Source: Argopecten irradians (lineage: Eukaryota > Mollusca > Bivalvia > Pectinida > Pectinidae). From it: DNA of 64,000 nucleotides. The translations under genes were made by a program, and so were the position numbers. Each line of letters starts with the position of its first letter. The first letter of the stretch is position 1. The notes below the pieces were generated by a model. The model searched no databases. It was not told the DNA's origin and saw only the letters and a program-made list of their open reading frames with translations. The stretch is from contig NC_091142.1 of assembly GCF_041381155.1 (NCBI RefSeq), forward strand, positions 4,157,778-4,221,777. The letters are read 5' to 3'. This document shows, one piece after another, positions 1 through 58,558 of this stretch.

Positions 1-201
1 GTATTATAATAATGCATATTTAGAACTTTTGCATCAGTTGTAATCGTTCCTTTATACGACAAACATTGTAATATGATATATATGAATATCAGAAAAATCA
101 GAAGCAATATGACTTAAATCATTACACCAAAAGCAAATTGATTGTTACATCCATAGAAGGATAATGAAATGATAAAACCAAATGTAAAATTGGTTTGACA
201 G

Positions 202-385
202 TAATACGCTGGCAGCATACACTTGTCCCGGGAGCACAGTATTTCTGTAACGTACAAGCGTGTAACGGAGCTGGATTATGTACATCAGTGTCATCCAATG
301 GCTTTACTACAGACACTTCTCCACCAGTCCCAGGTGTCGTCCATGTAGGAATTGATGGACATCACTCCAGATACTGGCCTCATCC
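202..385 (+). CDS. Exon a of the left FN3-like gene
   Basis: The acceptor is TTTGACAG, ending at 201, and the donor is GTAAGT at 386. The exon encodes the end of one module (Y-F-C-N-V-Q-A-C-N-G-A-G-L-C) and the linker DTSPPVPGVV that opens the next. The paired Cys around 'NGAGLC' recurs in exon b as 'CNEAGLC', which marks one subtype of the module. Earlier exons are outside the window. Confidence 0.8.
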
Positions 386-15507: not shown

Positions 15508-15877
15508 CTATACATCTACTTCAGCCAGTTGCTTATTGCTCATCTTCACAACGTTTCCGCTGCTTTGCTGACGTTTAAAAAGTGATTGATAGCCTTTCAT
15601 TTCAACCGGATTACGCATAATTCCTGGTGCTAAAATAGGACTATCTAACAGATTCAGCGGTTCAACATCGTGTTCCTGAAGCATCCTTGGTATCGGTTCC
15701 GAATCCATCTGCACCTTGGCTGGCGGAGGATCCTCGTCTTGAACGTCGATAGGATTGTCAGTCCCTGTTTTCGATAACAAGTTTGAGCCGAGGAAGATAG
15801 ACTTGGCGGAGGCCATTCCCGGATTGAGCTGGCTTGTTGATCCTTGATTCCACAATTCGTCCTCTAAACTCCACGTG
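15508..15877 (-). CDS. Giant gene, exon 46: cytoplasmic tail and stop (residues 4895-5017)
   Basis: The terminal exon encodes most of a 136-residue tail and ends at the stop (15,508-15,510). The tail has no catalytic domain. It contains '[17 protein letters not shown]' and a C-terminal EVDV. The end has valine at positions 0 and -2, which fits a class II PDZ ligand. There are no classic NPxY or ITAM motifs. These are weak motif matches; a link to scaffold proteins is only a suggestion. Confidence 0.8.
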
Positions 15878-18800
15878 CTGTAAATAAAACATGATTATAT
15901 CCACTTACACATTGGTCATTCAGGCATAATAATAAGATTACTGTAAGAGAATAGGCATTTCCTGCTGTTCGATTCCTTCTCAATTATATTGTGTATAAAA
16001 TAAAAATTATGTTGCTATCGCATAATTCTGTATCGTGTCTTAAAACTATATATGTGTTATATTTACCTATAGACGCAAATCATGAAGGAAAGAGTAATTA
16101 AGATGTATCCGTCTTTCGTAATAATTTATTTGAAAGTGCAACTCGAGCAAATGTTACTTTTAGATATATCTTTTTTCGTTTGTAACATTTGAAAAAGTCA
16201 ATGATTATCTTACCTATCCACGCGTACAGTGTACTTCTTCAGCTTTTTGTACCTGTAGACAATGAAGATGCATAACCCAGCTACAACAATACTGGAACAG
16301 AGAATTATAGCTGTTAGTTTCCCGGCGTTGATCTTACATGTGAAGAAGGCGATGTGATCAGTGCAGTCATAAAGAGGAGGACAGGGGTCGTCGGCACATT
16401 CGTTGATTTCCTCGTCACACCATTGTTTGTGGTACCCAGAATTACAGGTGCATGTATACATGTCATAGCTGTCAGCTCTTGCGCTGTCATTACAAGGGGA
16501 ATTGCCGTTATCTGCCTGTGTACATCTGCCATAGTTACAAGGTGAAATAAGCACAAACACATGTAAGTCTATTCTAGCTGTCCTTTGGCCACCTCTGTCG
16601 CTGCCAATCATTTTATAATGTAAATGCCCATGGAAATCAGTCTCCGTTTTAATCCTCAAATCGGTGCGTTTGTATGAGGCACTTTGACTAGGCGTAAATG
16701 TGTTATTCGGTACAATGGGATCAGCCGAGTCTTCTTGGACAAGACGCGCTCCGGTTGGATGCATCTCACGGCTAACGAACGTCAGGCTCTCCCCTACGTC
16801 AGCGTCAACCATCAGCAGAGATCCAATATGGTGTTTCGTATTGTTACCTTCTAGGAAAATAACAATTTCAGCGTCTAAATGATCCGCCAGTGTAAAGTTA
16901 TCATTATGGGAGAGGAACCCTACAACTGGTGGGTCATCTACTTCAGTCACGTGTACCGTTATGACCTTTGACACTGGATGGCTGTTACTACAGGGTGAAG
17001 TCCCCTGTGCTTCGATTTCAATATATATTTGTCCAGAAAACTCTTGTGGTGGTATGAAAGTCAGTAACCCGTCAGCAGTGACTGTTAATTGGCCTGCTAA
17101 TGGTTGCTTGCTGGAGAATGTCACTGGGTCATTTTCTGCATCAGACCATGTTAATTGGTGAATTATTGTAGTGTCCTCCGCGGTATGTATGACGTCAGTT
17201 GTGATGTTGGGTGGGGTATTAAAACACGTGCTGCGCATCGTAAATAGTCCAAATTGGAATGGTGACGTCAGTGCAGTATCCGCGGCAGCAGCACGTTTCT
17301 GTCTAGTAACATCATCTTTACCTTTACCAACGAGTGTTTTATGGCATACCTGTAATAAACCATACCGTATTGATAAAAACATGTAGTGGGTATAACGAAC
17401 GCGATTTAATGAAATTGCGAAATCATTCTGTTGTTTTTGGCGTATGGAACGAAATACAATTATGTACAGTACATGTATTAAAGTCCGCAATTTTTAATTG
17501 CATTATCGGGGGTTGCTTTTATTTTTTTTGCAAACGTTGTTATCGCTTTTCACATCAATGCAATCCAGAATAACAAGAAATTTAACTTGATTTTTTTTTT
17601 AAATTATTGTACTAGCATATTTCAATAGTTACATTTCCTGATATCTTTTCTCATATATGATTAATACAAGTAATTTTTATGAACCATATTGACTGCAAGC
17701 AAATGCTTCCATAGGCTTGTTTTAAAATGTGAAATGGTGACCGTGTGTAATATGCAACCTTACCTTTGTTATCAGATATGTGCCGTTGTTTAGTTTATTT
17801 ATGCTTTCAGGATCACATTCCTCTTGAACATGTAACCATTTTCCGTCCTCTGTGAAAACGAATCTAGTTTAATATCGGTATGAGCATACGTGAAAATATA
17901 ATTGTTCTGCCATTTTATCGGCATTTTATACAATTTTATGTAGGTCTTGAGCCGAATATCGACTTTATACCCTAAAACGCTAGAATACTCCGGACTAGTA
18001 TACGAGCAAACACCAAATTTGAAAATTGACAGAAAGAATTATGCATACCGAAACAAAAAATATAATTAATTTGCTTTAAAGATTGTTCTATTTCAAAGGC
18101 AAAAACATATCTCAAATTAACTTAATATAGATTTTACTATTTTAATTATGCATTCCGGAATAAAATACATATCATTATTTTGCTTTCAGAAATTGTTCTA
18201 AACGCGAAAAGATATTGGCGAAATTAAATTAGAAATAGACGAAAATATGTCTGATTTGATAATGTGTATAGAATACTATTTATACTATAAAACCACATGT
18301 ATATTTACCAGTTGTAGGGTTATCCCAAACAGCCAGGGCGGGCACTGTGTCGTCGTTATAATCAGCCGCGTTGATCCTGACGCTGATCTTCATTTCTAGT
18401 TCGGATGACTCGATAACCGGCATCGGAGAAATGAAAAATGACAGTCCCTGGTAGTCCTGGAGTCTAAGAAAAAATATTTTGCCTTTAAGAACTACAAAAT
18501 GATATTGGGAAATTTAAAATACGATTCCAACCTCATAGCATACCATCCAATAGCCATTACATTGCTTTGTGATCCATTTATTACCTAAACGAACTCTATT
18601 GTCTATAATAAATATACGACAACACAATACTACAATGCGCCCTATATCAGAGTATTGATTTACCTGTTTGTGAGAAGTCTTGATGTATACATCATTGTAG
18701 TTTTAGGGTCGACTATTGAAGGAGAAAACTCGTCGGACGCATCAGTGCCGTAATTCTTTGTGACGTCAACGGTCGAAAGAGAGCCTATCATTATACCACT

Positions 18801-21800
18801 GCGACGTGCTATGATACAGGAAAGAAGGATGTTTTTAAAACAAAATACACGTAATACTGACAATAATTTGATTATGCATCATATCACTTGATCATTGAAG
18901 TTATGAGTTTGAAGGAAGCTATGTAAATAACACATAGTTCAAACAAAGGATACAGACTCTTTTTATTATCCTGAAGGATATTACATATACGTCGTACTAA
19001 AATCAATAATTATCTATTATTGCCTGGTTGAGAGGGCACTATTGCCTCATAGTATTGACGAGGGATGGAATAGTCCCACTATCCCATCACGAGACAATAC
19101 TATGAGGCAAAAGTGTCCTTTCAACCAGGCCATAATGGGTTTAGTACATCACCCCCACATGTGACTCGCTTTCATGGCATCATAACAGAAGCACGTCAAG
19201 CGACACTTCACAACACTTCACAACGCTATCTTCATTTCGACACCACGTTGTTACATTACTAGTACAACATATGAAATATGTGTTTCTATAACAGGATTCA
19301 GTTTCATGAAGATTGAAAGTAGAAGAATATAGAACAAGAGTAAACTGTCTTCTGTAGAAAAGCAACATTTGCTTCCATCCCCGCACACAATAGCCTGTGC
19401 GCCATCTTTACGTCTTGATCGAAACACAACGTTATATTGACGTCATGCAATGGTGACGTCACAATGCATCCACGTTCAATTTTGCGCCACATCAATAGTG
19501 GCCGCTTGCCCTGGCACTATTTCACATATTACGAATACCGCTGAAGAAAAATTTAATTCAATATATGCCTGATTTATTCACAAAAATCTTCACAAAAAGC
19601 CTTAACAGCCATACATTTATACGAGAAAAACAAAGATTGCTTCAAACAAACCTTTTATCTCGATGATCACATTAGCATTATCCGTAGATGTCGACGTTTG
19701 CTCCAGTTTCTTAATTGTTCCATCTGAAGCCATCATCAGTGTTATTTCTTCGCTTTCATTCAACATCAGCCGGAAATCCTTGCGACCTTTCAGGACATTT
19801 TTATAAGATTTTTAATTTACTATTTAACATTTTAGGTAAAATTTTTGCTTAACAGTTCAAGCATAATTTAATAATCTTTAAAAAAAAATACGAAAGCAAA
19901 CAAACAACATTTTTTTATTGTGTAAGCAGGAAATAAACATATTTCTATAACAAACTGGTAATAATAAGTCTAAAACAAATACATATGCCAATACCGCCCA
20001 ATTAAATATATACATTTTTTCTTGCGCAATGCTTGATAACTCTATATGCCATCCGCCATGTAAATTTTGCAAGCGCATAAGCGTGTTATCACCAATGACC
20101 TTTAAAATGGCGTTTTAAGGCTGCTTAAATAATTACGTGTTGATTGCTGTAAACAGTAAAGCATAAAATAACATCTTTCTGTAACATACGTGTGATACAT
20201 GTAGGTTTCATGGGAATTGCACTTCTCAGGTGAGATCTCCCCACAGCCACGAGTGAGTGATGAAGACAGCGACCAGGCTCCAGTAGGAAAGTAGATCCGC
20301 CATGTGTGTTGTTTGGATGATCTCGGAATTTTGACACGGTTGAGTTCATGTTGGTGCCGTTGAACCAGAAATGTCCGTGGATAATTTCTGCCTGTCCCGT
20401 TTTTGATATGCCAGCCTTGATCATAGGTAGAATGTCAGACGTGTTCTCAGTTGTTCCAATACTCCACTCTGTACTCAAGAAAAATAAAATAGAAAAAATA
20501 TAATTGCAGAATAAGTATGGAAGACAATATTTTTCTTAGTTGCATATACAATCAAGTCATAACTAGAGATAACTTAGTTAACGCCTTGTGCTTATGTTTG
20601 TCTAACAAATATATATTTTCATGCCAGTTGATACTTCAATAAAATAAAATCACAAAATCTGACAAAAACTATTGCACATTTGTTCTTAAAAATGTATGAT
20701 ATGCTAAGACCTTTTAACAATAACATAATATTATAATCGTATTAAATATATCATTCAGTTACTCTACACCAGACAATTTTATTCTTACCGTACACATCGG
20801 CTATATCATTTTTACTATTCCATGCCACGCCGAAACTGTCCTCGACTTCTGTGAATGACACATCTTTAATGGGATTGCCATTTCCATCAGTAGCGTCATA
20901 TTCGAATAAAGATTTCGATGCCACATGTTTGACATCTGGGGGATACAGCTCGACATTGAACTTACAAGAGAACCTTCCCGTCGTTCCTGCAGCATTGTAG
21001 GCCCAGACATTGAAGTAGTATGCATCGCCGTGGATGAAGAACTTGTCATCATCTAGGTAGATTTGACCATTGGTTGCCAAGCCAACGTCAGTCATATTGT
21101 ATAAATCGGTGTCATTCTCAGAAGTTCCAATGCCGATAGAGTAGGAGTAAACCTCACTCTCAGGATCTATACAGGACCAGTAGGCCGCTACAGTGTTGTT
21201 GGATCCGATATACTCCGTAGGCTCGTCCATGCTGTTCAGGGGATCCAAACATCTGACATATTCACATATAGCTGGGGTTGTATCTACCATAATACCGTTG
21301 GATCTTGATACAGATTCCTGTCCGGCGAAGTTCACAGCCTTGATATTTACGTAATATGTATGCGTGTCCGTTATTTCATATTCGTATTCAGACCCATTAC
21401 CAGGAGAAGCTATTGTAGGCAGTAAATCCAGGTCACCGATTTCAATTTTCATGAGATCAAAGTCACCTGGTAGACATGTTTCTGGACAGTGATCGAGACA
21501 ATCTTGTTCACAAGGCAAACACATTGTCTGATACAGCCGCATAGCGGATACACTATCCGTTGAGTTTTCATTGTCAGTTACTCCTACCCATATCTCCTTT
21601 ATGCTACTCTCACCATCATAAAATCCGGTTCCTTGCAAACAGGGTTTTCTGATATCGGTTGGAATGAGAATATGGGTAATTACAACCTCAGACCGGAAGG
21701 GATCGAATACGTCCTGGATGCCTGGTTCATTGTCGTTGTCATTTATCGTGTTAACAAAAGTTTTCAAACTTTGACCGAAATCGATTCCATTTGCAATCGC

Positions 21801-24800
21801 CTTAATGACTCCGTTTATATATAACTTAATATTGTATTTTAATTCATCGCGCGAAGATTCCGATACCAACGCAAATGTAACAATTTCTCGCGATTCATAC
21901 GGATTTGCATCTAATGTGATCCATTCTTCTACATTTTTGTATTTGCCAACGACCCAAAACATAGCATCCCATATATCACTTCCATTCTGCTGTGTCCCCA
22001 TAATACTTAAGCCGAAGCCGAACTGTTGAGGATTTGGAAGTTCGCCGTATTCGGTATCTGTGAAATTCCTGCCTTTAACAGTCGTAGTGCCGAACGTTGA
22101 GGGCGTTTGTGTGGTTGGCGTCGTGGGTTGCTGAGTTGTAGAAGAGTTAGATTCATCATCTGACTGCTCTGGTATCGTCATATTGAAACTCACCTCGTCG
22201 ATGGTCGTTCTGTATGGTGGAGTATAATTAGTCGGGAAGAGCTGAGATTCCGATCCAAAAGAAATAATTGATACAATATTATCTCCCCTTGCTGCTTTTA
22301 ACGATACTGTGTAGTTGCCAGGTATTAGAGAAAACTCAGTACTCTCCATTCCACTTTTGATAAATTTGGTTTGGGCCGTGTTATAACCTATTGTGAGAGT
22401 GGCTTTGGTTTCAGTAAAGTCGACGAATTCTGGACTGTATGGTGTGGCCATCTTTTCCCATGAAACACCACTTGAATTATGAGCGGGAAAGGTTGTTCTT
22501 TGATTCGGACAAAGGAAATCCTCTTGCGTTCTGGCAATAGCGATCCACGACGTTATTGTATCTTTGGAAGATTGAAACGTGGATATTGAAGACCAATCTG
22601 GAGTTATCTTCACATCACCATTTAGAGGGCCGGATGTGTCCACTCGGAATCTGGAACTGCTGACCGAGGAACTAAGTCCAGCCGTGTTGAGTGCGGTCAA
22701 ATGCACGAAATAAAATGTGTTAGGCAATAACGATAACCGATACATTGTAGCTTTGGTATCCCCTGTCACTAATATTGAATCAACCTTGAATTCATCAGCA
22801 ACGGTTTTCAAATCACAACTCGTCATTTGGTATAACGTTACCTCAAAGGATGCGATACTGCTTTCAGATTCTGTAAAGTTTCTCCATGAAACATCAAGTT
22901 TATCAAAATCAGCGACAAATAAGTCATCATTTCTGTCGTCTATCACGTTTCCGATTTGTAGTTCTATAGCCGTGAAATCAGGAGGAGTGGTGTCCACCAA
23001 AATAGCTGATGACGTCACAGACTGACACATATCGGCCTCGTTCTCAGCTACAACTGTGACGTAATAGGAATGACCATGCACCAGGTGAAGGTCTTGTATC
23101 TCCGCAAGAGTATCCAGCCCATACGAAGACATCGGTTTCTCATCAAACTGCTCAAATGATCTATACATTGTATCACATGCCGACGTGTTGTTATCACTAT
23201 TAGATAAGTTGAATGCGGAACTGTTGCTGGAAACTCCGACAAGGTATTGTCTTATCCCTATATCAGACTGAAAATCTGTCCATGATGCAATTATTTTTGA
23301 AACGTCTGACTGCACATCTGGTGTTTCGATCGATCCTAGAACTATAAGATCTTTGAATCCTGCCTTGACGCCGTTCGAGGTTGATTTTTCTTGACTTCCA
23401 GCCATACTAGTAGCTCTAACTGTTACATAATACGTCACGCTCTGGGCTGTCAGGTTCAGATTACGGAACGTATAAGATGTGTTTAACCCTACGTTAACAT
23501 AATAGTGAATATTTGATCTGGTTTTCTCGTAGCGATTATTATCACCTAATGCTACCTCATAGTATCTCACTGTCTGTGTAGGACTTCCGGTGTCGTCTCC
23601 AAAAGTGTCCCAATTAGCAGATAATTCCACGACGCTCTGCTGGTAGCTTATGTCCTCTTCTAGACCATCGCGGACATCGCCAGGGTTTGGTGGCTGGATA
23701 CGGACAGTGACACCGTCGGACGCAGACGTGAATGTTCGATTTAAAGCGTCCCTGACTCTTATAATATTTATGTAAGTAAACCCATTCTTCAGACTGAATT
23801 CGTCACTATAAAATGTGTGTGCGTTCTCAACAACATCTTCGAAGTCTTTGATTACGTTTCCTAGGAGATCCTCGATTTTCCACTGTACCATTTCTATAGG
23901 ACATGTATCAGAAAAGCGCCAGAATCCACGAATTGTGTTAAGACTACTTTGGTAATCTTCGTCCACTTCGGAGCCCCCATCACCAACGGTCAGCATGGGT
24001 CGAACACTGACCGTTACACTGTCCGAGTAGAACATTTTGGACAGACCGCCTTTATTTGTTACTCTTGCTGTCGCATAAAACATGTCCCCATGGCCAATGT
24101 CTAGGTTTCCAAAGAATATTTTACCCGTTGGTGAGATATCTTTATAGCGGCTAATATCAGTATGTCCAGGCTTGGAACCAAGTGCTACCTCCACCCTATG
24201 TAAGAAATTGCAAATTCAATGTAGCTTCATCATTCTATTTTTGTTCAACATCAACAATTTCGTTCAACCATATCAACCACGTTCTTTAAAAAAATGTATA
24301 TACGAGATTGCCATATGCTATATGTAGAAGTACAACTTGAATTACAATAAAAATATTTGTTTTCGGATTACCATTTTGATTTAAGATTCAGTATGAAAAG
24401 CCATACTGACTGAAAACAACATATTTATCATGTGGGATACATGGAAATTTTCGGTGCCGACAGCAATAATTTTGTGACTGAATATCTAAATGTTTATATA
24501 GTGTCAAATAATCAGACAGAGGTAAGTCGAAAGTTTAAAATAGACAGTTTATGCATATGCATGGTATTTCGTTGTTAACATATCATTAGATATTCAATCT
24601 AAGTTTTGAATAATAAAAAATAGAGAATAAAACACACCAAATTACAGACCATTTAAAAAAAGAAATATAAAAGTAATAATATGTATGCTTACTTTTCGAT
24701 TTCAGTTTCTTCGTCCGCGACATTCTCCACCAAGACTTCAACGTATGTCTGAGGGATTTGACATCTTTGATGAACAGTGATTTCTTCCCGAGACATTTTC

Positions 24801-48800: not shown

Positions 48801-51800
48801 CTTTCCATTTAGCTAATATTTTTCATACTCTTAGGAAATAGAAACCAATGGGGATTTTTGTATCAATTCCCCCAAATATAAATTTATATATCCATGAAAT
48901 AATTTATGAAAGAATATAAATAATCTTGATATTCCAAGAACGTGGAAACCACTGATCAACACTTTGAAGCAGATAAAACTGAAACAGATCTACATGAAAC
49001 GAAATCCGAACAACAAAATTAATATATCAAATCTAAATTTAAATTGTTAGCTATAACATACGACTGTAAGAATGAGAACACATAATTGTGTCTATAATGA
49101 TATAAGTAACAGACCAATAAGCTGTAACAGCACATAAATAAAACATATTATGATCAATAAACTGAACCTACATTCTTCATTTTACTCCTAGTAGAAAGTG
49201 ATTGTAAAGGAGAAAAACAACAGGCATATATTCTGCATTCAAATTTTCATTTAAATTTAAGACAGGGAGAATGAGAAAAGCATAAGCTATACGATATACT
49301 GAGAAAAAAAACTAATAATAGATGTAATAAATAAATAACAAATATAAGGATTGTGAAAATGAGAAAGACATAATCTATACAATATATTGAAAAACACAAA
49401 AAAACAAATAACATATATAACTACATTCCATAGATTGCCTTTAAGGACAACGAGAAGGAGAAAAACAGAAGGTATACAATAATTATGTTATGAAAAAAAT
49501 ATTAATCAAAACAATTAAATCATATTTTGTTCCACTTACAGGCAATGGCGATTCTAAGTTGATTAGATGCACTAAGATTCTGAACGCCTCTTTTTCGTTG
49601 AATTCTTCTTCGCTCAGCGTCAGGTACTGAAGTAGCAGCCTCTGAGAAAACTCATCTCCCTTTCCTCCCACGAAATCAATGAACAGTGACCGCTGGTCAG
49701 CACAGACGGTATTGTTGACGTCGCAGACCACAGCCAAGGCTTGAGTTACCAGTGTCTCGTAGTCCTCATCATGGAGGCCGAAGACAATAGTCCGGAGTTG
49801 TCGCACGCATGCCGTCCTGTTCGCTGAATCTATTATATAGACAAATAAAACAATATTTTACAATTTGTACATACCGTTATTTACATCATAACAGATCTTA
49901 ATTCTAAGCACAATGGCGATTAAACTATGACAAATTATAGCAAATTATATTTTTTCTGGCGATGTTTGTAAGAATGTCTTCAAAGAAATTTGAATCAGCC
50001 TATTTTAAAAAGGTCGGCATTGCCCATGTATCTAGTAAATAATTATCCATGTAAAAGGAAAGGGTCGGGGTGGATTTTACATAGTTTTAAATACTGGTTC
50101 GATTCCTGGTCGGGGCACTGGTCATGGATGTGTATTTTGTCTTGTTCTTAGCTATTGGCGCCCATTCAAAATAACCCTCGAAAGTCTGAGAGTCTCGGGT
50201 TGAGAATTAAGAAAAACAAGGGGAGCAGTGTAAAAATAGCGGGTCGACTTGCTTTTTACATAGACATAGTGTTAAAACGGCTTAGCCAATAAAGCATGTT
50301 TTTGGCTAAGTCGGTAGAGCCGCATATTTCCACACCGGAGACCCGGGTATGATTGCTGGTCGGTTAACTAGGTAGACATCATATTTGTTTGTCCCTGGTC
50401 TTCTTCATTTTATACATATTATTCTACGATTCTGTGGAACATATCCTACATGTGGTGTACCGTAATTTCCTGCATATTGACCACGGATTACATCAGCAAA
50501 TGCTTTATGCAAGCTATATGTAGTAATTATTACGGGTTATCTTAATATAACTTTACGGAAACCATAGCATATGTATGATTTTGCTTCCCACGTACTATAC
50601 TTTGGTCCGGGTAATACACATTAATTGATTTAACCATATTTCTTACTATTGTGAAATGTACTTTTAAAGGAAGACAGAAAGGTAACGCCGTATGCATTAC
50701 ACGATTTGCATGTGTAGTTGAACAGGAACGATCATATTGTTTGTTCGTACTTTAAAAATCAATATATCACTGTCAACAAGGGACAACATTTTCCCACACT
50801 TCCTTGTCCAGCATACCTACATATCAAATAATGACTTATTTATAGTACATCTTAACGTCGAGTTGAATAATAAAAGCTTTGAATACATTTCAAAATATGC
50901 ATTGTAATGTTTACACGTGTCTTACGTAATTTGATTGATTATAGCTACCTGTTAGTGGCAGTGCAAACATATCATAACTAAACGTACAATACGGCATAAA
51001 TCATATATCTTGTTAACTATACTTGTTAACTTCCTGATCTTGTATACTTTTGAACAATGTTATAACAATTGGTTTTCAAGCTGCCGACCAAACCGTCAGG
51101 ATACCGCACGTGACTTTGCATTTTGTATTATGTATGCTACGACATTTTTAGCGGCATCGAATAGGCACACGTGCGCTTGCGAGCATGAGGCATGGCTACA
51201 TACTGCCTGGCGATCGGCCAATGTTCATTTTAAGATATATATAAAAAATATACTTATTCCTGATGATTAAATTTCTATATATAAAAAAGTAAATGAATAA
51301 AAATGATAAAAATGATTTGTTCTTCAAGATATCTTTCGTACGGCAATAGGAGTACAATAGGGAACACCTTTAGCCATTTTATTATTTTCAGTATATATAG
51401 GTGATACGGTACATTATTCATTATTCGTGCCCTTTTATTTGAAGACATCGTTTACATTTGCTTGAGTCTAAACACATATATTTCTCACAAAATTTACTGG
51501 TGAATAAAAATTACCAAAAATCCTAAAAAAAAAGACAATATTATATACAAAACATATGGTTTATCTGTATACTAGTTGTTTTTTATTACATTACGATATC
51601 ATCATACGATGCAATATATATGTAACATAGCCTGTTCATTGAAAATATCAAACTGTTCAACTTGAGCCACTTAAAACGAAACTCGGGACTGTAAACTATA
51701 AGAAATGAATATATATGAAATAGAATCTCTCATTTCTTATACACAGCAAATATTTCATCCCTCTTCCTGCAACATATTTTTGTAAAAGCAAATGCAAACT

Positions 51801-54800
51801 TTTTTTTTGCGCTGGCCTACAGTTTTCAAATTCTATATTATATTTAAGAGGGTGGATAATGAAAATTGTATTTGATGGTTTCACTCACGTTTATCTGGAT
51901 TAGCCCGAATACATTTGAGAGCGGTTTCCATTTCTTCACTAATTTGCTGCAGCGTTGTTTTATTCACTTTCTGAAGCATAAATTCATGTAAAAAACCACA
52001 ATGCTTTTGTATGGTAAAGATATACACAACAATATGATAGTACATCTACAAGTACTCATGTATTAGTATTACATATTGATCAGAATTATATTAAGTTAAA
52101 CCTCTATGACATCACTGACTTATGATAAAAATGATACAATCTGAACACAGTAGATATTATACATATATTCCTTTATAAAATTTTGCCCTTGAAAATAAGA
52201 TCTTGCATACCTTTTTTTGTATGTTCCACTATAAAGAAGTTACAAGCAGCCGTGTCGATTCTAATTATACAAGAAAATATGAGTGCATGGAATTTATCAT
52301 CCTCGATACTCCAGGGGTTACTATCACTGACGATATATCCACTCCTGGAGTATCTTATAGTAAAACTGAAGGCAACACAGATAATTTAATCCTTTGATTA
52401 TGTGCATCAAAGGAATTTTAAAACGGTACACAGTGGTTGACTGCTTTGAAATTTGGCGTCGCTCTCTCTTAAATATCCAAAGGAAGTATCTGCAGGCCTG
52501 TGTTTGGTCTTTTTTTCTCCTGAACTGCCTCCAGTTTTACTAGGTAGTCACGGGATAATCAGTAATAGTAACCCTTGTGATATCAAGGATGTGAATTTGT
52601 GCACTTAATCTTAATTACGCAAATGAAAATGTACCGAGGTACGTATTTTAAGTGTTCAATAAACTTACCCCAATCTGTGGCATGAGTTATTTCCAGCGGG
52701 AGGAGCACAAAATGAAAATATAAAATGTAAACAATATTATAAACATTTTAATATGGTATTTTAATAATAAACTAATATAGGTTTGACTTCATCAATATAT
52801 GATTTAAACATACATTTATTCATTGAATTTCATTTTACTGAGTTATGTCAATTTTAAAAGGGAAGTTATATATACATCATTGAAATAGCTGTTCAATTAT
52901 AGATTATTGGACAAAACGTCTGTTGAACATTTTGGAAATAACATGTTGGGTTGGAAAAACATATGACGGTTAGCTCTATATAGTGATAGCCTTCATTTAG
53001 TAAAACGTACCGATTTGATCTGAATGCTGTCATTGGCTAATGTAACAAGGTTTGGATCACTGTTGAATTCGACTGCATGAAGTCTGGTGGTAAAGCAAAT
53101 AATAAGAATAATGAGCTCTAGTTCTTATTGAAACTCATGTAATAACACTATTGCACTGTAAACCCCTTTATTTTCGCGAGAGATACAAATGTTCGCGAGA
53201 TTCTGCGCTAGAGATACAAACTTACGCGATACACTGCGCTAGAGATACAAATTTACGCGATATACTGCGCTAGAGATTCAAACTTACGCGATACACTGCG
53301 CTAGGGATACAAACTTACGCGATACACTGCACTAGAGATACAAACTTACGCGATACACTGCGCTAGAGATACAAATTTACGCGATATACTGCGCTAGAGA
53401 TACAAATTTACGCGATATACTGCGCGAGACATACAAATTTATGCGATATACTGCGCGAGAGATACAAATTTACGCATCATACTGCGCGAGATATACAAAT
53501 TTTCGCGAGCGAATTTTAACCCGAATTTTTGCAAATCGTATGCAGGTATTAAATTGAATACACAAATGTGTGCAAACGTGAATAAGATGGAAATAATGCA
53601 GTTGCGTGTACATATTGTATACAAAATAGTGGTTTAGAATAATACATTTAGATTTTGAACTTCATCAACTTGGGGCGTTTTAAACCCCTCTCGTATTTTT
53701 TTTAGTTGCAAAGTTTGTAAAGGTCATAAGGTTAAAATGATGACGGTTGGTATAGGATTCAGATAAAATAGATAAATGATTGTTCACCTTTTCTTTGTCA
53801 GCTGAAGCTTGGAGACTGCGTTAGAGGAAATTTGCGGAAAATCTGTAATATAAGTTTTTCTATTGTTGATAAAACCATTAAACTTGTGGTAGTATTTAAT
53901 CTTAGATCTAGAGTGTTTAATGTTATCCTTTTTATTTACTTTTAGAGAACACACCTGATCTCTGCGAATATGTAAACATTACGTTATTAGGAAATACTAC
54001 ACGGATATTTAGAGGCGCATGTACTAGGGCTAGATTCATAGGTTCCAGAAATAAAAGCGACCCGTGACTTGTACTCTACCCTCATAGACCGTTTAGAACT
54101 TTCTCACCCCCTCGTTTTAATAGTGAATTGTCGGACAGCCTAGCCATTTTGCCAATCAATCGAATACTTGTGTTATTCGTGATTGTCTATATAAGAACTA
54201 TATAACTTTGATATACTAACCTCCAGACGACCAATCTTGTATCGGCTCGGCATTCACAGCATTGGTACTGAGAGTATATATCGACATAATTAATTCTTAC
54301 CATTACCCAGATGGATTTGGTTATTCGAAGATATTCATAAACTTATTCAACATACGAACTAGATCAATAATCGACGTTACTAGTGAGTATGAATCTACAT
54401 AACATTGTTGTGTAAATTATTAGACTATAATTCAGATGCAAGGTGAACAACGTTCTCTTTTTAATTCAGCATGTTTCTGCGTAATTGAATAGAAACTGCC
54501 ATATTATTACAGAATTATCAGAAGTAGAACAAAACATGAATGGTTAACTGTGTAAGGAATTAATATCACATTGGTTGTTCTTCCTTTCTGCGAGGACAAA
54601 CTTTGTTTCTATGTACATTTTACTACGAGGAGACATATCAATTAGTTTAAAATCGGTGATTATCCTACCTTACATTACTAGACTTTGACTGTCGTAGTCT
54701 GATGGTGTCGTCTGCCATAACATACTTCACCGTTCCCAGGCTATTGTAGTGCATGGTCTGTAATGAACACACAACAATATGTTTGTGATTTATCAGTATA

Positions 54801-57800
54801 TTAAATATTCTATGAACAAAGAAGATCAACAAAAATGGGAATAAATGTAATAATTTTGAATAAATACTAAGCTATTTGAATCCCTTAAAAACATTGATAT
54901 TGAAGTAAGGATTGAGAATTGACGTCAGAAACCATGTATCAGATTAAACTTTTCTTCTAAAATGACCTATCAAATGTTAATCTTATGTTACCATTGACAA
55001 TCAGTTCGCGATGTATCACTATAAATTACATATTGATATATTACTGTAAACTAACCTAATTTCGCAACATTAATTTTGCGTTTTTATTGTTTGACGACAT
55101 TTTCGAGGCGATTATCTTTGTGATTTATAGTTGAACAACTGTAATTTTACATGTATTTGAACTGTCGTCTCGGCGATTATTTGTCACGAAATATACTCAC
55201 TCGCAAAATAATCGCTCCCAAAAATAAGTAGGTTTTCAGTAGTTTCTTTAATTGGATATGTGACGTTGTCAATATAATCTGCGAATTAAATAAATTTCAT
55301 ATTTGTCATTATATCAGATGACATTTGTAACCCTTACTTTATTGTGGTTTCTGTGGACGTCAGCACTGCTGTTGTGGGATCGCCTCAGTACCATCCCCTG
55401 GGGACCACGTGTCACGCTATACTGGTGTTCCAGGTCACCGGCATGGTCCACCTCACGGTTGCTGAACTCACGTGGGTGGGTACGATGGATCTGTGAGTAA
55501 GATAATTGAACCTTGAAATCAGGAATTAATGTAAAGATCTGTGACGGAACGATTCATAAATAATCATACGATTGTCAGAAAAAAATATTCAGAATTATAT
55601 ATATCACGATATATCTTTCTGTTGATATGTATTGTGCGATTCACCAGAAATGTTTTGTATCTTCTAAGATAGATTTCTCGAAATACAACTATAATTATTA
55701 TCCGGAAGCCTCAGCATAACCCACATTCCCTCCTTACTTAATCACATGAAGGATATCAGTACTGACCCCTACTAACATTAGCCTTTGCTGACAGAGTACA
55801 GGTCAGTATAAACCCTTACTTACGTTAGCTTTAGCTGACAGAGTACTGGTCAGTACTTTCTTCAGCGCTATCACTTCCTCGTCATCCGCGTGGTCATAGT
55901 GAACCATGGCAACAGTCCCGTCATCGTTCAATCGGAAATAAAACCTAGAAATATAAGTATCAGTAGGTGAAATATGACATAGTTTTATTATAGAATACTT
56001 CTATACAAGGCATGTGATAATTGCATTGAAAGAGACAAGAAACATTGTTTAGAATACATTGGCGATATTTCAATAAATAATAGCGTATGTTAAATGTTTA
56101 TAATTAATATAATAGTGTGAACCCAGATAATAATATTTTTCTCAAAATATGGAAGAATAGTAATTTATAGTAGTACAAAATGCAGATAGAAATGTAATTA
56201 TAATGCATGTTATTATTGCAGTTCACGTTGCGACAATCCAAATGCAACACATTGCAGATAGGTATTCAGTAATTACCTTTTAGACAAGTCCCATTGATGA
56301 GGGTTCTCAGCGACTGAAAATTAAACATTTAAATCTTTGTTTATATCTTCATTACTACATTGCTTCTTCATAACTTTAATACATAACATTTAACCAATCA
56401 GCGAGTACCTATCGCATTTTAGTGTTTTAGATTTTCAAACTATTTCAATGATATCGGTATATCTAAAGAGACAGATATCAGCGACCTATTATTGAACCAT
56501 AGATAAAATGAAAACAAATAATTTTCAAGATATGTCTCCCACTTATTGCACCATATTGCATACATGTTTATTGGTACTGGTAATAATTGAACTTATCGAC
56601 GTACTGAACAGATGTTCTTAATATTTGAAATGTACTCGTACAAAGTCTACCTTATTAAAATGTTTCCACCATTCATATTTTCAATCGCTAAATGATTATT
56701 TTCAGTTTTATAGATTTAAATCAGATAGATATTCATTAAAACCCCAAAAACGATTGTCTTAGGAAATCCAAATATCGACAATGTATGTACCACATTACGA
56801 TATTTTATCTATCCCTTTGATACCCATCATGAGTAATAAACAACAGTTATATTTTTGTCAAAACTAGAAACAGGCTCCCATCATGGAACATTAAGTCACG
56901 AGTTCAATCATAAACAGTTTGTTGATTCAAAATCGTAAATTAAAATATATTGATTACATTGTAAGGGTTATATATATTATGCGTATGGTTATTTATCTAT
57001 AATCTTTTCGGTGTATTGGCGTAAACAAAATCTGTATCAATAGCAGAGATAATATCATACCATTGGCATACATGGCTTGAAATAAATTTACAACGCCAAG
57101 CAAACTGTATGAATCTCTTTGCTAATCTATCCTGACAATGAAGATTCTTTTCTCTTCTGTGCCGCTTGTTAAAGTGATAGTCAACAACCGCGCGGTAATT
57201 AGGACGACAGCGGGAAACATCAGATGGCCCGCGTTTGGAAATTTACGACAAATTTAATTTGAAATTGCTTAGGAATTGTGACAATTTTAGTATTAAAGGT
57301 AGGCAAATACTTGCAGGGACGCTGCAGACATCAATTTCGTTCTATAGTTAAGGTTTAAAAATTAAAAACCGATTCGGTAAGGTATGTACCTTAAACCTGT
57401 TATATATGTACCATAGCCAAACAAATGTTTTGCTCTGGACGGAAGATAAGAATTTTAAGATTATTTCGTATAAATGAACGGTAGGTTTTAATTCTACATG
57501 GAGGAACCCATCAGGTGATAACAAACCGAGGCTGCCAGAGAAGTCTTTTTAATTATTTGGTGAAGAAACGAGCACGAAGGGAAGCATATGTTAGTTTAAA
57601 AAGTATGATAATAATATATAATTACATATGTAGTACATACACGATATAGAATACTTGGAAATTGGAAAACAAGCTTAAATCTCATATAAATCCAATTCCA
57701 GGTTGATATTTAAAAAAAATAACAATTTTGTATGAAGCTGCAAATACCATCCATAAATGATATGGAATTATTTCATGATGCAAATGTGTATGAGTAAAAG

Positions 57801-58558
57801 GACTTACTGTAACCATCCTCGGAGTGCTGTACAAAGCTATCCAGCATTAGTGAGTGGACATTCTCGGACGAGTGGTTAACGGGACGGATCCGAAACTAGA
57901 TACGGAAAGGAAGTGTTAAAGTTATGATAGTTAAGCTAAAAGTATTTTGTTTTAAGATGAATCATTATTATAATGATATTTTAATTATAAACCGTATTAT
58001 AACAACTGAAATTCTTGTTGACCAATTGGAACGATATTATTTGAAAACAATCTCCATCGGTAATTCACATTTTTATACCGGCAATACATACATACTAAAC
58101 AATTATTTATAATGTAAAATTGAATTAAAGTAAAAAACATCAAACAAACATCTGTATTCTGTATAAACAATGAATTGCAATTAATGCTTTTTCAGCAATA
58201 TTATATAAATAATTTAGTAATTAAAAAAAGTTATTCTTAAGCTTAAAACGTCGTCCTCATGTTTTCGATAACATTAGAGATAAGCCAAGTCATCAGATCT
58301 TAATAAATACAAATTATTGGAGAAATCAAATAGTTTGTTTTTGTGTTGTGTACAGAATAATTAAATACCATGTTGCTTTACATAACTTACCTTCATTATC
58401 GTAGTAAAATGATGCATACCAAAAAGATCCGACCTTGACGAATAGGTATAGAAATGATCGAAACCTTTCTCGAAGTAATATGCAACCCCCGGCTGACCAA
58501 GACAGCACACCAGAAGGACTACACACCCAAACTGTATAGGGCCCATTGTCGGTAACAT
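15508..58558 (-). CDS. Giant membrane-anchored LLTP/FN3/PAN/cadherin-like/EGF fusion protein (46 coding exons, 5,017 residues)
   Basis: This is the dominant gene of the window. I joined 46 exons by GT-AG sites and frame. They total 15,054 nt, exactly 5,018 codons including the stop, with no frame break at any junction. Order: signal peptide (1-26); vitellogenin-N type lipid-transfer module (27 to about 693) with an internal RRKR site (474-477); amphipathic-helical and beta-rich region; RKRR (1735-1738); FN3-like array with a PAN/Apple-like domain (about 1919-1978); Ser/Thr linker; GPS-like Cys motif; RQKR (4532-4535); cadherin-like modules; EGF domains; one transmembrane helix (about 4861-4881); cytoplasmic tail. 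The known LLTP families bind and carry lipid as secreted or ER proteins; a membrane anchor and adhesion-type ectodomain are unusual. Likely role (inference): a cell-surface lipid-binding or ligand-binding protein. The gene is head-to-head with the gene at 59 kb. The main alternative is that it is two adjacent genes, but no stop, poly(A) signal or signal peptide separates the halves. Confidence 0.8.
16214..17349 (-). CDS. Giant gene, exon 45: cadherin-like modules, EGF domains and transmembrane helix (residues 4517-4895)
   Basis: After the RQKR site come two cadherin-like Ig folds: '[15 protein letters not shown]', '[20 protein letters not shown]', '[14 protein letters not shown]', then 'ADVGESLTF'. 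Next are an EGF domain (S-P-C-N-Y-G-R-C ... [14 protein letters not shown]) and a calcium-binding-type EGF start (INECADDPC ... FTCK) that lacks its last Cys pair before the membrane (16,336-16,545). The single hydrophobic helix [20 protein letters not shown] (16,255-16,317) is followed by basic YRYKKLKKY, so the protein is type I with the N-terminus outside. Confidence 0.88.
17293..17304 (-). other. Encoded RQKR proprotein-convertase site before the cadherin-like modules
   Basis: Codons AGA CAG AAA CGT encode R4532-Q-K-R4535, followed by Ala-Ala-Ala. It fits the furin rule and lies about 325 residues outside the membrane helix. Confidence 0.7.
17764..20468 (-). CDS. Giant gene, exons 40-44: last FN3-like module and membrane-proximal region with GPS-like motif (residues 4250-4516)
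   Basis: Exons are 20190-20468, 19652-19786, 18664-18808, 18309-18463 and 17764-17849. Exon 39 joins exon 40 as '[19 protein letters not shown]', a module core. The rest is a beta-rich region: '[20 protein letters not shown]', then '[20 protein letters not shown]', a Cys, and, in exon 45, 'TKVCHKT'. The order W-D, W, Cys, Cys-H-x-T resembles a GPS motif of a GAIN domain, but the usual first Cys and the His-Leu/Ser-Thr cleavage triad are not clear, so autoproteolysis is doubtful. The exon 41 donor is GTTTGT. Confidence 0.75.
19018..19540. mobile_element. Hairpin-ended repeat element, copy 1
   Basis: It begins with a long foldback (GCCTGGTTGAGAGGGCACTA ... TAGTATTG, then CAATACTATGAGGC ... GTCCTTTCAACCAGGC) and continues for about 400 nt, including AAAAGCAACATTTGCTTCC and TGGTGACGTCACAAT. 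A second copy is at about 37.93-38.74 kb. No coding capacity is seen, so it is probably non-autonomous. It lies in an intron of the giant gene (between exons 41 and 42). Confidence 0.75.
20789..24195 (-). CDS. Giant gene, exon 39: very long exon with FN3-like modules, Ser/Thr linker and Cys-rich insert (residues 3114-4250)
   Basis: A single open exon of 3,407 nt (1,135 whole codons). It encodes about seven FN3-like modules with linkers such as [21 protein letters not shown] and [10 protein letters not shown]. After the fifth or so module a non-repeat section follows ('[20 protein letters not shown]') and then a Ser/Thr/Pro-rich, mucin-like linker (about 22,078-22,160). Next comes a beta-rich section ('[20 protein letters not shown]') that may be a separate globular domain. 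A Cys cluster ([17 protein letters not shown]) lies at about 21,464-21,530, between module halves. N-x-S/T sites are frequent. The exon is far longer than the 37-584 nt exons of the LLTP part. Confidence 0.87.
24693..26146 (-). CDS. Giant gene, exon 38: FN3-like modules (residues 2630-3114)
   Basis: A 1,454-nt exon with about five FN3-like modules. Recognisable cores are '[19 protein letters not shown]', '[19 protein letters not shown]', '[18 protein letters not shown]' and '[20 protein letters not shown]'. Linkers include [23 protein letters not shown] and [10 protein letters not shown]. Phases (0 in, 2 out) match exons 37 and 39. An extracellular structural or ligand-binding role is expected for such arrays. 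Confidence 0.85.
26230..26280 (+). mobile_element. Short SINE remnant
   Basis: AGTTGCCATGTACTAACCGC and TGGTTGGTTTTTTTTT match the middle of the SINE seen at 47.4 kb, with several differences. Old fragment only. Confidence 0.45.
26721..30053 (-). CDS. Giant gene, exons 33-37: FN3-like array, first part (residues 2068-2629)
   Basis: Exons are 29959-30053, 29216-29749, 28488-28665, 27743-27930 and 26721-27409. They encode FN3-like modules with linkers [50 protein letters not shown] and [11 protein letters not shown]. Exons 35 and 36 each carry about half of a module and meet inside it, giving '[17 protein letters not shown]' across the junction. Exon 34 joins exon 35 as '[16 protein letters not shown]', a normal module core. 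A decayed extra half-module lies in the intron between them. The exon 34 donor is GTTTGT, weaker than most. Confidence 0.8.
28699..28822 (-). pseudogene. Decayed half-module exon inside intron 34 (frameshifted relic)
   Basis: On the minus strand, just after an acceptor-like TCGTCGTAG, the sequence reads V-G-L..., then, after a +1 shift at an AAA run, SFHTPTTN...[14 protein letters not shown] and KAYYVTV. This is the second half of the FN3-like module ('VGTSPG ... L-x-x-x-x-x-Y-x-V-T-V'). The frame is broken by one base and no clean donor follows. The flanking real exons (34 and 35) join perfectly without it, so it is best read as a dead exon. Confidence 0.6.
28811..28957. repeat. 70-nt direct tandem duplication over the relic exon's acceptor
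   Basis: 28,811-28,880 and 28,888-28,957 are identical or nearly so, with a period of 77 nt. Each copy contains ACACCTACGACGAAAATAAC, which includes the acceptor of the relic exon on the minus strand. High identity shows a recent event. Confidence 0.9.
30380..31585 (-). CDS. Giant gene, exon 32: furin site, first FN3-like modules and PAN/Apple-like domain (residues 1666-2068)
   Basis: This 1,206-nt exon is where the protein switches type. The first 70 or so residues finish the carrier region (hydrophobic '[16 protein letters not shown]', a Pro-rich linker) and reach GSRKRRE, a consensus furin site. Then an FN3-like module begins ('[19 protein letters not shown]' and the linker [10 protein letters not shown]). 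At about 30,649-30,828 a PAN/Apple-like domain is inserted: '[20 protein letters not shown]', then a fourth Cys at EICDLHEV (Cys1935, 1939, 1946, 1958). Another module ends in [15 protein letters not shown] domains usually bind protein or carbohydrate. The exon starts after a short acceptor (CGAAAG) and its frame agrees with exon 31. Confidence 0.82.
31369..31380 (-). other. Encoded RKRR proprotein-convertase site between the lipid-carrier and FN3-like parts
   Basis: Codons AGA AAA AGG CGT encode R1735-K-R-R1738, followed by Glu. The site sits in a Pro/Ser-rich linker exactly at the change from carrier-type to FN3-type sequence, a natural place for cleavage. Confidence 0.75.
31586..32989 (-). 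other. 1.4-kb intron at the carrier/FN3 boundary of the giant gene
   Basis: Separates exon 31 from exon 32, where protein type changes. No extra exon was found: the longest minus-strand open frame (32,144-32,398) has no flanking splice sites in a usable phase that I could recognise. Confidence 0.5.
32990..40361 (-). CDS. Giant gene, exons 25-31: end of the lipid-carrier region (residues 1238-1666)
   Basis: Exons are 40102-40361, 39509-39712, 36577-36768, 35477-35715, 34978-35137, 33683-33753 and 32990-33147. Contents include a hydrophobic helix-rich part ('[19 protein letters not shown]'), a Cys-containing beta domain (exons 26-27), then exon 28 with repeated '[10 protein letters not shown]'-like motifs, and Gly-rich strands ('[18 protein letters not shown]', '[19 protein letters not shown]'). 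The pattern suggests lipid-facing strands rather than a soluble globular enzyme. No family name can be given for this part. Confidence 0.72.
33490..33665. repeat. Imperfect tandem repeat in intron
   Basis: Three irregular copies of a unit containing GTGTTCAGCTCAGATTTTGTTT, about 40-60 nt apart, in the intron between exons 30 and 31. Confidence 0.6.
34420..34570. repeat. Imperfect foldback in intron
   Basis: GGATAGGAAGGAGAGGAATATTCTAC and the inverse of GTAGAATATCCCTATCC face each other across about 90 nt, with further pairing of TCACAAAATG and ATTGTGATC. A separate palindrome, GAGGCTTTATTGCATGG / CCATGCAATACAGCCTC, lies at about 34,712-34,752. Confidence 0.6.
35590..35715 (-). repeat. Coding tandem repeat encoding (P-N/H-L)GSGIxLP
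   Basis: Four copies of a roughly 10-codon motif ([20 protein letters not shown] and following) lie at the start of exon 28. Each DNA copy includes CCAAATTTAGGCTC or a variant. The peptide alternates Pro/Leu/Gly with hydrophobic residues. Confidence 0.8.
37225..37475. repeat. Two inverted repeats in intron
   Basis: GTGTTTACACACT / AGTGTGTAAACA forms a near-perfect hairpin at about 37,227-37,252. A larger one pairs GTTCATTTCATTTGAGATTT (from 37,352) with AAATCTCATATGAAATGAAC (to about 37,470). Confidence 0.65.
37932..38738. mobile_element. Hairpin-ended repeat element, copy 2 (interrupted by a SINE)
   Basis: Same element as at 19.0-19.5 kb, with the same foldback start and the same GGTGACGTCACAAT block. 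It is split by a SINE at 38,183-38,375. The flanks belong to a satellite-like repeat (GATCTCATTGATAT left, CAATATACCAAATGTGG right), so this copy is itself an insertion. Confidence 0.75.
38183..38375 (-). mobile_element. tRNA-derived SINE with target-site duplication
   Basis: The minus-strand SINE runs from the tRNA-like B box (GGGTTCGAATCCC) through GTTGCCAGGTACTGACCGCT and CTGTTAATAGGACG to a tail of repeated AAAAC. It is flanked by the 13-nt direct repeat ACACCATGTTGTT (38,170-38,182 and 38,376-38,388). The tRNA A-box head is missing, so it is 5'-truncated. Confidence 0.88.
41042..42549 (-). CDS. Giant gene, exons 23-24: basic then acidic segment (residues 985-1238)
   Basis: Exons are 42375-42549 and 41042-41625. 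Exon 23 holds a basic patch '[13 protein letters not shown]' and ends in 'LNRRSR'. Exon 24 encodes a beta-like stretch, then a strongly acidic, probably disordered segment ('[19 protein letters not shown]'), then a Ser/Phe-rich end. The basic and acidic patches could pair or bind ions; no named domain is recognised. Confidence 0.75.
42920..44887 (-). CDS. Giant gene, exons 18-22: amphipathic-helical region (residues 694-985)
   Basis: Exons are 44555-44887, 44110-44252, 43816-43886, 43371-43531 and 42920-43086. The region consists of helices with Lys/Asp-Glu on one face and Val/Ile/Leu/Phe on the other, for example '[17 protein letters not shown]' and '[19 protein letters not shown]'. Such segments are typical of lipid-surface binding in apolipoproteins, but the sequence alone does not prove it. 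Cys is very rare here, in contrast to the flanks. Confidence 0.75.
45458..46081 (-). CDS. Giant gene, exons 16-17: beta-rich segment after the LLTP helices (residues 584-693)
   Basis: Exons are 45900-46081 and 45458-45603. Alternating hydrophobic residues such as '[15 protein letters not shown]' and '[17 protein letters not shown]' suggest amphipathic beta strands, as in the sheets that line the lipid cavity in this superfamily. Two Cys lie in '[18 protein letters not shown]'. I cannot assign a named Pfam domain by eye. Confidence 0.75.
46199..46320 (-). mobile_element. tRNA-derived SINE fragment with A and B boxes
   Basis: The minus strand reads GCCGCGGTGGCCTAGTGGTA (A box TGGCCTAGTGG) and GAGTTCGAATCC (B box), followed by GTTGCCAGGTACTGACCGCT. 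The 3' tail is cut off. It is a retroposon head and not a working tRNA gene, because the cloverleaf 3' half is not preserved. Confidence 0.82.
46930..51970 (-). CDS. Giant gene, exons 10-15: alpha-helical superhelix of the LLTP module (residues 278-584)
   Basis: Exons are 51889-51970, 49540-49823, 48563-48617, 48292-48432, 47955-48181 and 46930-47060. The stretch is strongly helical and matches the helical domain of vitellogenin, apoB and MTP. '[21 protein letters not shown]', '[20 protein letters not shown]' and '[17 protein letters not shown]' follow the family pattern of an N-x-G helix, an RRAAV-x-x-LR helix with a Cys before the next exon, and a paired helix ending in HHPRG. A loop in this domain carries KQRRKRS (site at 48,144-48,155), a consensus furin site. 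The exons are small, as in other LLTP genes. Confidence 0.85.
47373..47584 (-). mobile_element. Near full-length tRNA-derived SINE
   Basis: The minus strand has the A box TGGCCGAGTGG, a B box in GTCGCGAGTTCGAATCC, the body motifs GTACTGACCGCTGGTCGATG and CCTGGCACGTCCTTACATGA, and the tail CTGTTAATAGGACGTTAAAC. This is the most complete copy in the window and lies in the intron between exons 14 and 15 of the giant gene. Confidence 0.85.
48144..48155 (-). other. Encoded RRKR proprotein-convertase site inside the LLTP helical domain
   Basis: Codons AGA AGG AAG CGA encode R474-R475-K476-R477, followed by Ser. The site lies in a Lys/Arg-rich loop between predicted helices and fits the furin rule R-x-K/R-R. 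Whether it is exposed and cut is not shown by sequence. Confidence 0.7.
49824..51888 (-). other. 2.1-kb intron of the giant gene
   Basis: Between exons 10 and 11. Apart from the two retroposon remnants near 50.1-50.4 kb I see no exon or RNA gene. Open frames on either strand here show no domain. Confidence 0.55.
50085..50400 (+). mobile_element. Two remnants of a second tRNA-related retroposon type
   Basis: GGTTCGATTCC followed by TGGTCGGGGCAC (50,096-50,118), and TGGCTAAGTCGGTAGAGCCG with GACCCGGGTATGATTGCTGG (50,303-50,360), resemble A/B boxes of a tRNA with a GGTTCGATTCC arm. The two differ from the SINE at 47.4 kb. Function as a tRNA is unlikely. Confidence 0.45.
52669..52674 (-). other. 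Possible 6-nt microexon
   Basis: Between exons 9 and 10 the minus strand reads ...CATGCCACAG, then ATTGGG, then GTAAGTTT. The six bases are flanked by a good acceptor and a consensus donor and would add Ile-Gly without changing phase (both neighbours are phase 0). Not included in the 5,017-residue model. Confidence 0.3.
53011..58558 (-). CDS. Giant gene, exons 1-9: signal peptide and N-terminal beta domain of the LLTP module (residues 1-277)
   Basis: Exons are 58391-58558, 57808-57895, 56277-56313, 55824-55944, 55338-55490, 54669-54757, 54221-54267, 53788-53842 and 53011-53083. The start ATG at 58,556-58,558 opens a typical signal peptide: hydrophobic [12 protein letters not shown], with cleavage likely after residue 26. 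'[13 protein letters not shown]' fits the opening strand of the vitellogenin N-terminal domain. '[14 protein letters not shown]' with '[14 protein letters not shown]' matches the region where the family has a strand followed by the KK-x-hydrophobic helix. '[14 protein letters not shown]' follows, as in family members. For exon 6 the donor GTAGGA at 54,667-54,668 was chosen over the stronger GTAAGG five bases upstream, because only it keeps frame into exons 7 and 8. Confidence 0.8.
53176..53515. repeat. Minisatellite, 31-nt unit, about 11 copies
   Basis: The unit GCGCTAGAGATACAAACTTA followed by CGCGATACACT is repeated with small changes (CTAGAG/GAGAG, CTTACG/TTTACG). CG dinucleotides are frequent here against an AT-rich background. 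It lies in the intron between exons 8 and 9 of the giant gene. Confidence 0.92.
56314..57807 (-). other. 1.5-kb intron of the giant gene
   Basis: Separates exons 2 and 3. AT-rich; no exon, RNA gene or clear repeat recognised. Confidence 0.55.

Follow-up and report, generated by a model that had tools for sequence, protein, structure and literature searches.

The window analysed here, C9:4157778-4221777 (64,000 nucleotides of a chromosome-size contig in the 845.8-Mb genome of Argopecten irradians), contains a minus-strand gene that runs from an ATG at 58,558 to a stop codon at 15,508 and comprises 46 exons, 45 introns, all of them GT-AG, and 5,010 residues. A first-pass annotation had described 46 exons and 5,017 residues in one frame, which holds to within a few exons. 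The model was obtained with an exon-chain finder trained on the long open frames of the window; the start codon was supplied to the finder from that annotation, and the stop codon and splice sites were its own choice. Uncorrected, the finder returned 35, 44 and 47 exons under three exon penalties; each of these chains stopped at 15,508 and included the join 32,990/31,585. Two candidate exons of the early models were discarded as repeat-derived, namely, 52344-52211, weakly matched at many other places in the genome, and 38432-38310, also found at about 47.4-47.6 kb of the window; the latter was removed by hand as repeat-like, and in the corrected run both 38432-38310 and 52352-52206 were penalised. 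An exon at 51970-51889 received a bonus after comparison with two sister genes (C9b and C9c, see below), upon which the exon 53083-53011, matched in C9b, entered unaided; the extent of exon 1 was fixed by eye (merge). At a laxer penalty, the corrected run gives 48 exons and 4,993 letters including the stop. The minus-strand stretches 52206-52352 and 38310-38432 are examples of repeat-derived sequence mimicking exons.

The gene belongs to a family of about six, with three members on C9, two on C3 and one on C1, all chromosome-size contigs, and the domain order is kept across the family. The C9 trio is similar in sequence and lies 0.5 to 4 Mb apart. C9b lies at C9:3.663-3.698 Mb on the plus strand and C9c at C9:53808-110075 on the minus strand. 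In C9c, several exons show stops and shifts of frame and the large lipid transfer protein (LLTP) part is diverged; this copy appears to be decaying and served for observation only. In C3a, the LLTP-side exons begin at 61.882 Mb (E 3e-11; a further match at 61.879 Mb reaches only E 2.6) and are followed by the helical and cysteine exons, to 61.894 Mb, the beta tail at 61.9015 Mb, exon 32 at 61.902 Mb and the cadherin/EGF exon at 61.923 Mb. C3b begins at 62.046 Mb (E 6e-11), with the beta tail at 62.060 Mb and exon 32 at 62.061 Mb. In both C3 copies, the LLTP-side exons lie upstream of the exon 31/32 join, in the same strand and order as in the window gene. Two candidate cadherin/EGF exons (C3:62085049-62086097 and C3:62116186-62117232, plus strand) follow downstream of the single upstream part of C3b, so that there may be a seventh partial copy or a duplicated end. 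The C1 copy, on the minus strand, is the most divergent member: its LLTP side is represented by weak matches to exon 17 (27.874 Mb, E 0.018) and, collinearly, exon 24 (27.867 Mb, E 0.235), and its Vitellogenin_N part was not found in the genome search, followed by the beta tail at 27.771 Mb (1.4e-11), exon 32 at 27.769 and 27.767 Mb, and the EGF-transmembrane part at 27.732 Mb. The single ordered architecture described in the first pass is thus retained by the paralogues on C9 and C3 and, in part, by that on C1.

The protein opens with exon 1 (58391..58558; this and all following parts of the gene are on the minus strand), defined by an open frame and a donor, which carries the start codon and a predicted signal peptide, whose hydropathy peak ranks second in the protein. 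Exons 2-9 (53011..57895) encode an N-sheet-like part of the LLTP-type module, with exons 4-8 matched in C9c and exon 9 in C9b (tblastn, 51%, E 4.9e-9). Exons 6-15 (46930..54757) give a match to Pfam Vitellogenin_N (PF01347) over residues 189-552, mostly the helical domain, with E 2.2e-10 and 40.2 bits against a cut-off of 24; the E value was 5e-8 before two conserved exons were added to the model, and the helical part of C9b alone gives 3.3e-6 (26.4 bits). The vitellogenin-N type module of the initial description accordingly stands as a Pfam match, but one that is remote and partial, spanning only positions 295-547 of the 590 in the profile. No Pfam match to the open beta-sheet (DUF1943, PF09172), DUF1081 or vWD was obtained in the pieces scanned, drawn from exons 1-40 and 45, in scans that reported E up to 10 (the HMMER filters drop most matches above 0.1). 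In these pieces, the protein therefore appears to have neither the open beta-sheet and vWD by which vitellogenins are defined nor the DUF1081 that defines Apolipophorin/ApoB. An LLTP of the same genome (C3:36.92 Mb), predicted in the same way, scores 4.3e-98 with Vitellogenin_N and 3.3e-70 with the open beta-sheet, so the method is able to find such domains. As a control of the gene finder, four LLTP loci of this genome were run; these yielded a near-identical pair of 880 and 879 aa, a 253-aa part of a third and, on C15, 118 aa without an LLTP look, and the Pfam scan covered one of these predictions.

Is this likeness a sign of descent, or could ordinary HEAT repeats resemble Vitellogenin_N by chance, with no link to LLTPs? 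HEAT_2 does match weakly, under the cut-off, in both the window protein (0.0022, 18.7 bits) and C9b (4.4e-4), and a genome-wide Pfam scan ranks one window exon only, at E 0.127, which is under the cut-off and behind the true LLTPs. Searches of PDB sequences matched no lipid-transfer protein or LLTP, and hhalign against two LLTPs of this genome, using two-sequence alignments, gave a non-significant probability of 1.2% (E 0.042), so that neither supports the link. A profile of the same two LLTPs ranks the window protein best of 1,001 sequences at E 0.14, close to the 1.7 of the best of 1,000 shuffles. Against a chance origin, the Vitellogenin_N score of 40.2 bits exceeds that of HEAT_2 and the match reaches beyond the HEAT part; the signal stretch stands where it would be expected; and phmmer against the genome's own LLTP returns weak but collinear matches, one of them in the N-sheet (residues 137-187 on 137-187, and 487-540 on 466-520; E 0.0014 among three sequences). 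On balance, we consider a chance resemblance unlikely and the N-terminal module probably a very divergent LLTP homologue; judged from the sequence, the LLTP likeness is remote and limited to this module.

Beyond the helical domain, exons 16-17 (45458..46081) encode a beta-type segment with strand periodicity (z 3.1, a value reached by 1 of 500 shuffles); C3a and C3b both contain matches to it, and C1 a weak one to exon 17. The next six exons, 18-23 (42375..44887), encode some 350 strongly amphipathic helical residues (687-1036), with a helical hydrophobic moment of z 7.2 that none of 500 shuffles reached, compared with only 0.8 for the LLTP helical domain; these exons are matched in the C9 and C3 copies. 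Exon 24 (41042..41625), a cysteine-containing stretch and acidic linker, is matched in C9b, C3a and C3b. Exons 25-27 (36577..40361) form a region with no Pfam family that includes a single unit of a cysteine module of which the C1 copy has several (exon 26 against the C1 repeat, 26%, E 4e-3). At C1:27.779-27.810 Mb, on the minus strand, this module forms a series of 15 stretches with a CC motif, the single unit of the window gene being without CC; two strung C1 units matched no Pfam family. Long, in-frame-open tandem repeats of SSIDGRSE- and GTEYRIQGKIW-like units occur at C1:27.776-27.780 Mb and 27.791-27.793 Mb, apparently in introns of the C1 copy. Exons 28-31 (32990..35715) encode the first part of a beta-tail domain, with strand periodicity over residues 1530-1710 (z 4.4; 0 of 500 shuffles) and matches in six copies; for C3 these are weak across the genome (E about 0.01), and a local comparison gives 1e-7.

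The beta tail ends in exon 32 (30380..31585), which also encodes FN3-like segments, an RKRR motif (31369-31380) and a PAN domain (about 30640-30831). PAN_1 matches at E 9.1e-6, and at 7.9e-5 in letters strung from the C1 copy, confirming the PAN-like domain proposed earlier; searched against PDB, exon 32 gave one chance-level match (E 0.58). Exons 33-41 (19652..30053) encode an FN3-like array in which D-x-[T/S]-P linkers recur; 14 of these, in the loose form D-x-[T/S]-(x)-P, lie between residues 1828 and 4078, with 7 of the 13 spacings at 102-118 residues. The Pfam scan of the array, over exons 33-40, gave fn3 at 25.2 bits in exon 39 alone, against a cut-off of 25.0, and at 21.3, under the cut-off, in a longer spliced piece; exon 39 also matched FN3 chains of PDB weakly (E 0.043 and 0.39). 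The FN3-like repeats of the first-pass annotation are thus weak at the profile level, with one marginal domain in exon 39 that falls under the cut-off in the spliced piece. Elsewhere in the window, at 168-5638 on the plus strand and convergent with the main gene, lies part of another gene, the FN3-like repeats of which are about 24% identical to the main array (best E 2e-15).

Exons 42-44 (17764..18808) link the FN3-like array to the cadherin-like pair and have counterparts in C9b and C9c, exon 42 on C3 and C1 as well. Exon 45 (16214..17349) encodes an RQKR motif (17293-17304), cadherin-like domains, an EGF domain (about 16321-16506) and a transmembrane helix (16258-16314). Cadherin_4 matches in two stretches (E 9.5e-11), the only Pfam families found in this exon being Cadherin_4, Big_9 and, under the cut-off, Cadherin_5, and canonical, classical cadherin repeats would accordingly seem absent from exon 45. 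The EGF domain rests on Notch chains in PDB (E 1.9e-9), and the EGF with the hydrophobic stretch that follows was seen in the alignment of C9b, C3a, C3b (the 62.116-Mb exon of C3) and C1, so that both the cadherin-like and the EGF domains of the original reading are upheld; in the HMM search as a whole, Vitellogenin_N, PAN and cadherin-like families were matched and fn3 marginally so. Exon 46 (15508..15877), defined by frame, acceptor and copy matches (90% identity to C9c, 72% to C9b), supplies the cytoplasmic tail and stop codon. Hydropathy along the protein is highest at two places, the signal stretch (1.91, residue 2) and the C-terminal transmembrane stretch (2.71, residue 4855), in agreement with the signal peptide and transmembrane helix noted earlier; as predicted from hydropathy, the protein carries the signals of a single-pass type I membrane protein, a signal peptide and one C-terminal transmembrane helix.

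Comparison with C9b provides a check on the model. By blastn, 28 of the 46 exons align at 81-97% identity, exons 9 and 30 are matched by tblastn only, and the other 16 lie outside the C9b sequence compared. With boundaries projected from the alignments, AG stands at all 27 acceptors and GT at 25 of the 26 donors that could be read, the exception being the donor of exon 31, which is AT (C9:3679919-3679920); 26 of the 28 aligned exons have no net gap. The dN/dS between the two genes is 0.122 for exons 10-27 and 31 (1,194 codons), 0.103 for exon 32 (401 codons) and 0.152 for exons 33-36 and 43-45 (720 codons), or 0.134 for exon 32 and later exons pooled; for this count, exon 45 was truncated at base 1050, and codons containing N or a stop were dropped. 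The compared codons of both halves are under purifying selection (dN/dS 0.12 and 0.13).

The critical point of the model is intron 31 (31586..32989), of phase 2, where the LLTP-side exons meet the adhesion-type part and where two neighbouring genes, one for a secreted LLTP-like protein (exons 1-31) and the other for a membrane adhesion protein in its own right (exon 32 onwards), might have been merged. The window gene has an in-frame ATG early in exon 32, which, like the lack of a canonical exon 31 donor in C9b, would suit such a pair; the AT in C9b would mean either that read-through stops at once and gives a soluble LLTP-like product or that the sequence is in error, and C9b may thus not make the joined protein. 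However, the five copies compared (window, C9b, C9c, C3a and C3b) all break off exon 31 in phase 2 and continue that frame in exon 32, with GT-AG splice sites in the window, C9c, C3a and C3b and AT-AG in C9b, and the finder used the join at all penalties, as the first-pass annotation had it. C3a and C3b are diverged from the window gene, with 38% and 36% identity in exon 31 and 49% each in exon 32 (93% in C9b), and nevertheless keep the join, so that it must be old. Furthermore, the beta-tail domain straddles the join, beta tail followed by exon 32 is matched in six copies, the order is identical in the four other copies, and intron 31 measures only about 0.5 to 1.4 kb across the five. A signal peptide of its own at exon 32, which the earlier annotation had named as evidence for two genes, was not seen on inspection in any copy compared, and in C3a and C3b this exon does not open with Met. 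Given the conserved phase-2 join, we set the two-gene reading aside as very improbable; the architecture is very probably that of one gene.

Taken together, the order of parts, from a signal stretch through the LLTP-type module, the 350-residue amphipathic helix, beta tail, PAN domain, FN3-like array, cadherin-like pair and EGF domain to the transmembrane helix and a short tail, could describe a type I membrane protein that is tethered to the cell surface and holds a lipid or a lipid-bearing ligand, a reading to which, as a whole, we give an even chance. Under this scenario, the LLTP-type module and amphipathic helices would bind the lipid or its bearer, be it a lipoprotein, a lipid-modified signal or a microbial surface lipid, and the long ectodomain, with the FN3-like array as spacer, would hold the module away from the membrane. 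A furin-type enzyme may cut at the R-X-K/R-R motif just before the cadherin-like pair (RQKR in the window and C9b, RKKR in C3a and C3b), and the membrane stump left by the cut might remain attached to the large outer piece. The lipid-handling role itself is put forward tentatively, from sequence features.

The same gene may also be read with an LLTP-derived module that has lost the capacity to bind lipid and serves as a protein-binding scaffold in a receptor for adhesion or recognition of self and non-self, gametes or pathogens. Only the N-terminal module is recognisable, and very divergent, and no open beta-sheet was found, although it is recovered in a true LLTP of this genome; moreover, the gene exists in about six copies, three of them similar on C9, and copy-rich families are common among recognition genes. 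Yet the amphipathic stretch, kept in the C9 and C3 copies, suits lipid contact, and the low dN/dS in the compared parts is ill-suited to fast-changing recognition genes; we therefore view the scaffold as possible but somewhat doubtful. It is also conceivable that the protein is a proprotein, from which furin-type cleavage would release the LLTP-type half to act as a soluble, lipoprotein-like factor and leave the rest as an anchor. The RKRR between the halves, present in the window and C9b, and additional R-X-K/R-R motifs (residues 467, 587 and 4525) are compatible with such processing. Of four such motifs, however, those of exons 32 and 45 are the ones comparable with C3, and there the RKRR is missing from both C3a and C3b and the motif ahead of the cadherin-like pair is retained. 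Freeing of the LLTP half would thus not be a trait of the whole family, and we consider this route unlikely.

Returning to the surface-tethered, lipid-holding protein, the family could represent an old group of membrane-anchored LLTP receptors and hence a further branch of the LLTP superfamily, in which the carrier module became the outer tip of an adhesion-type giant, a proposition that we regard as evenly poised. If true, a lipid-carrier fold would also have been recruited as a surface receptor, the family would be a concrete candidate for the capture of lipoproteins, lipid-modified signals or microbial lipids in some invertebrates, and the tree of yolk and blood-lipid protein origins would gain a new point.

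LLTPs are generally described as secreted carriers or helpers in the ER. Like the window protein, apolipophorin and vitellogenin, including the LLTP of this genome at C3:36.92 Mb, begin with a signal stretch followed by a Vitellogenin_N module, and they share with it a basic R-X-K/R-R motif inside the helical domain; insect vitellogenins have a cleavage site of this type. The genome's own LLTP differs in its full Vitellogenin_N and open beta-sheet, in contrast to the partial, remote match and the added membrane-anchored ectodomain of the window protein. MTP is resident in the ER and, unlike the window protein, is not known to have a PAN/FN3/cadherin/EGF/transmembrane ectodomain. No description of an LLTP with a membrane-anchored ectodomain, or of this domain order, was found in the open-access literature, and the evidence for novelty is weak because the search covered open-access texts only and some queries were broad. 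In the scheme summarised in one such text, Vtg comprises SP, LPD_N, DUF1943 and VWD, Apo comprises LPD_N and DUF1081, and MTP has LPD_N only, being in this respect an LLTP with the N-terminal domain only, as the window protein appears to be; the snail Biomphalaria glabrata has four LLTP genes (PMC10799875). A coral skeletal vitellogenin-like protein joins a vitellogenin N-terminus and VWD to a protein kinase domain, and thus shares with the window protein an LLTP part fused to an unrelated domain, but is classed there as extracellular matrix-like and not transmembrane (PMC4890752). In the ascidian vitelline coat, ApoB-like and vitellogenin-derived proteins take part in fertilisation at the sperm-egg surface, and are presented as coat proteins, with no fused membrane anchor mentioned there (PMC9265791). 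Set beside these systems, the window protein is, by its predicted domains, an unusual variant of the LLTP kind, real and conserved within its genome.
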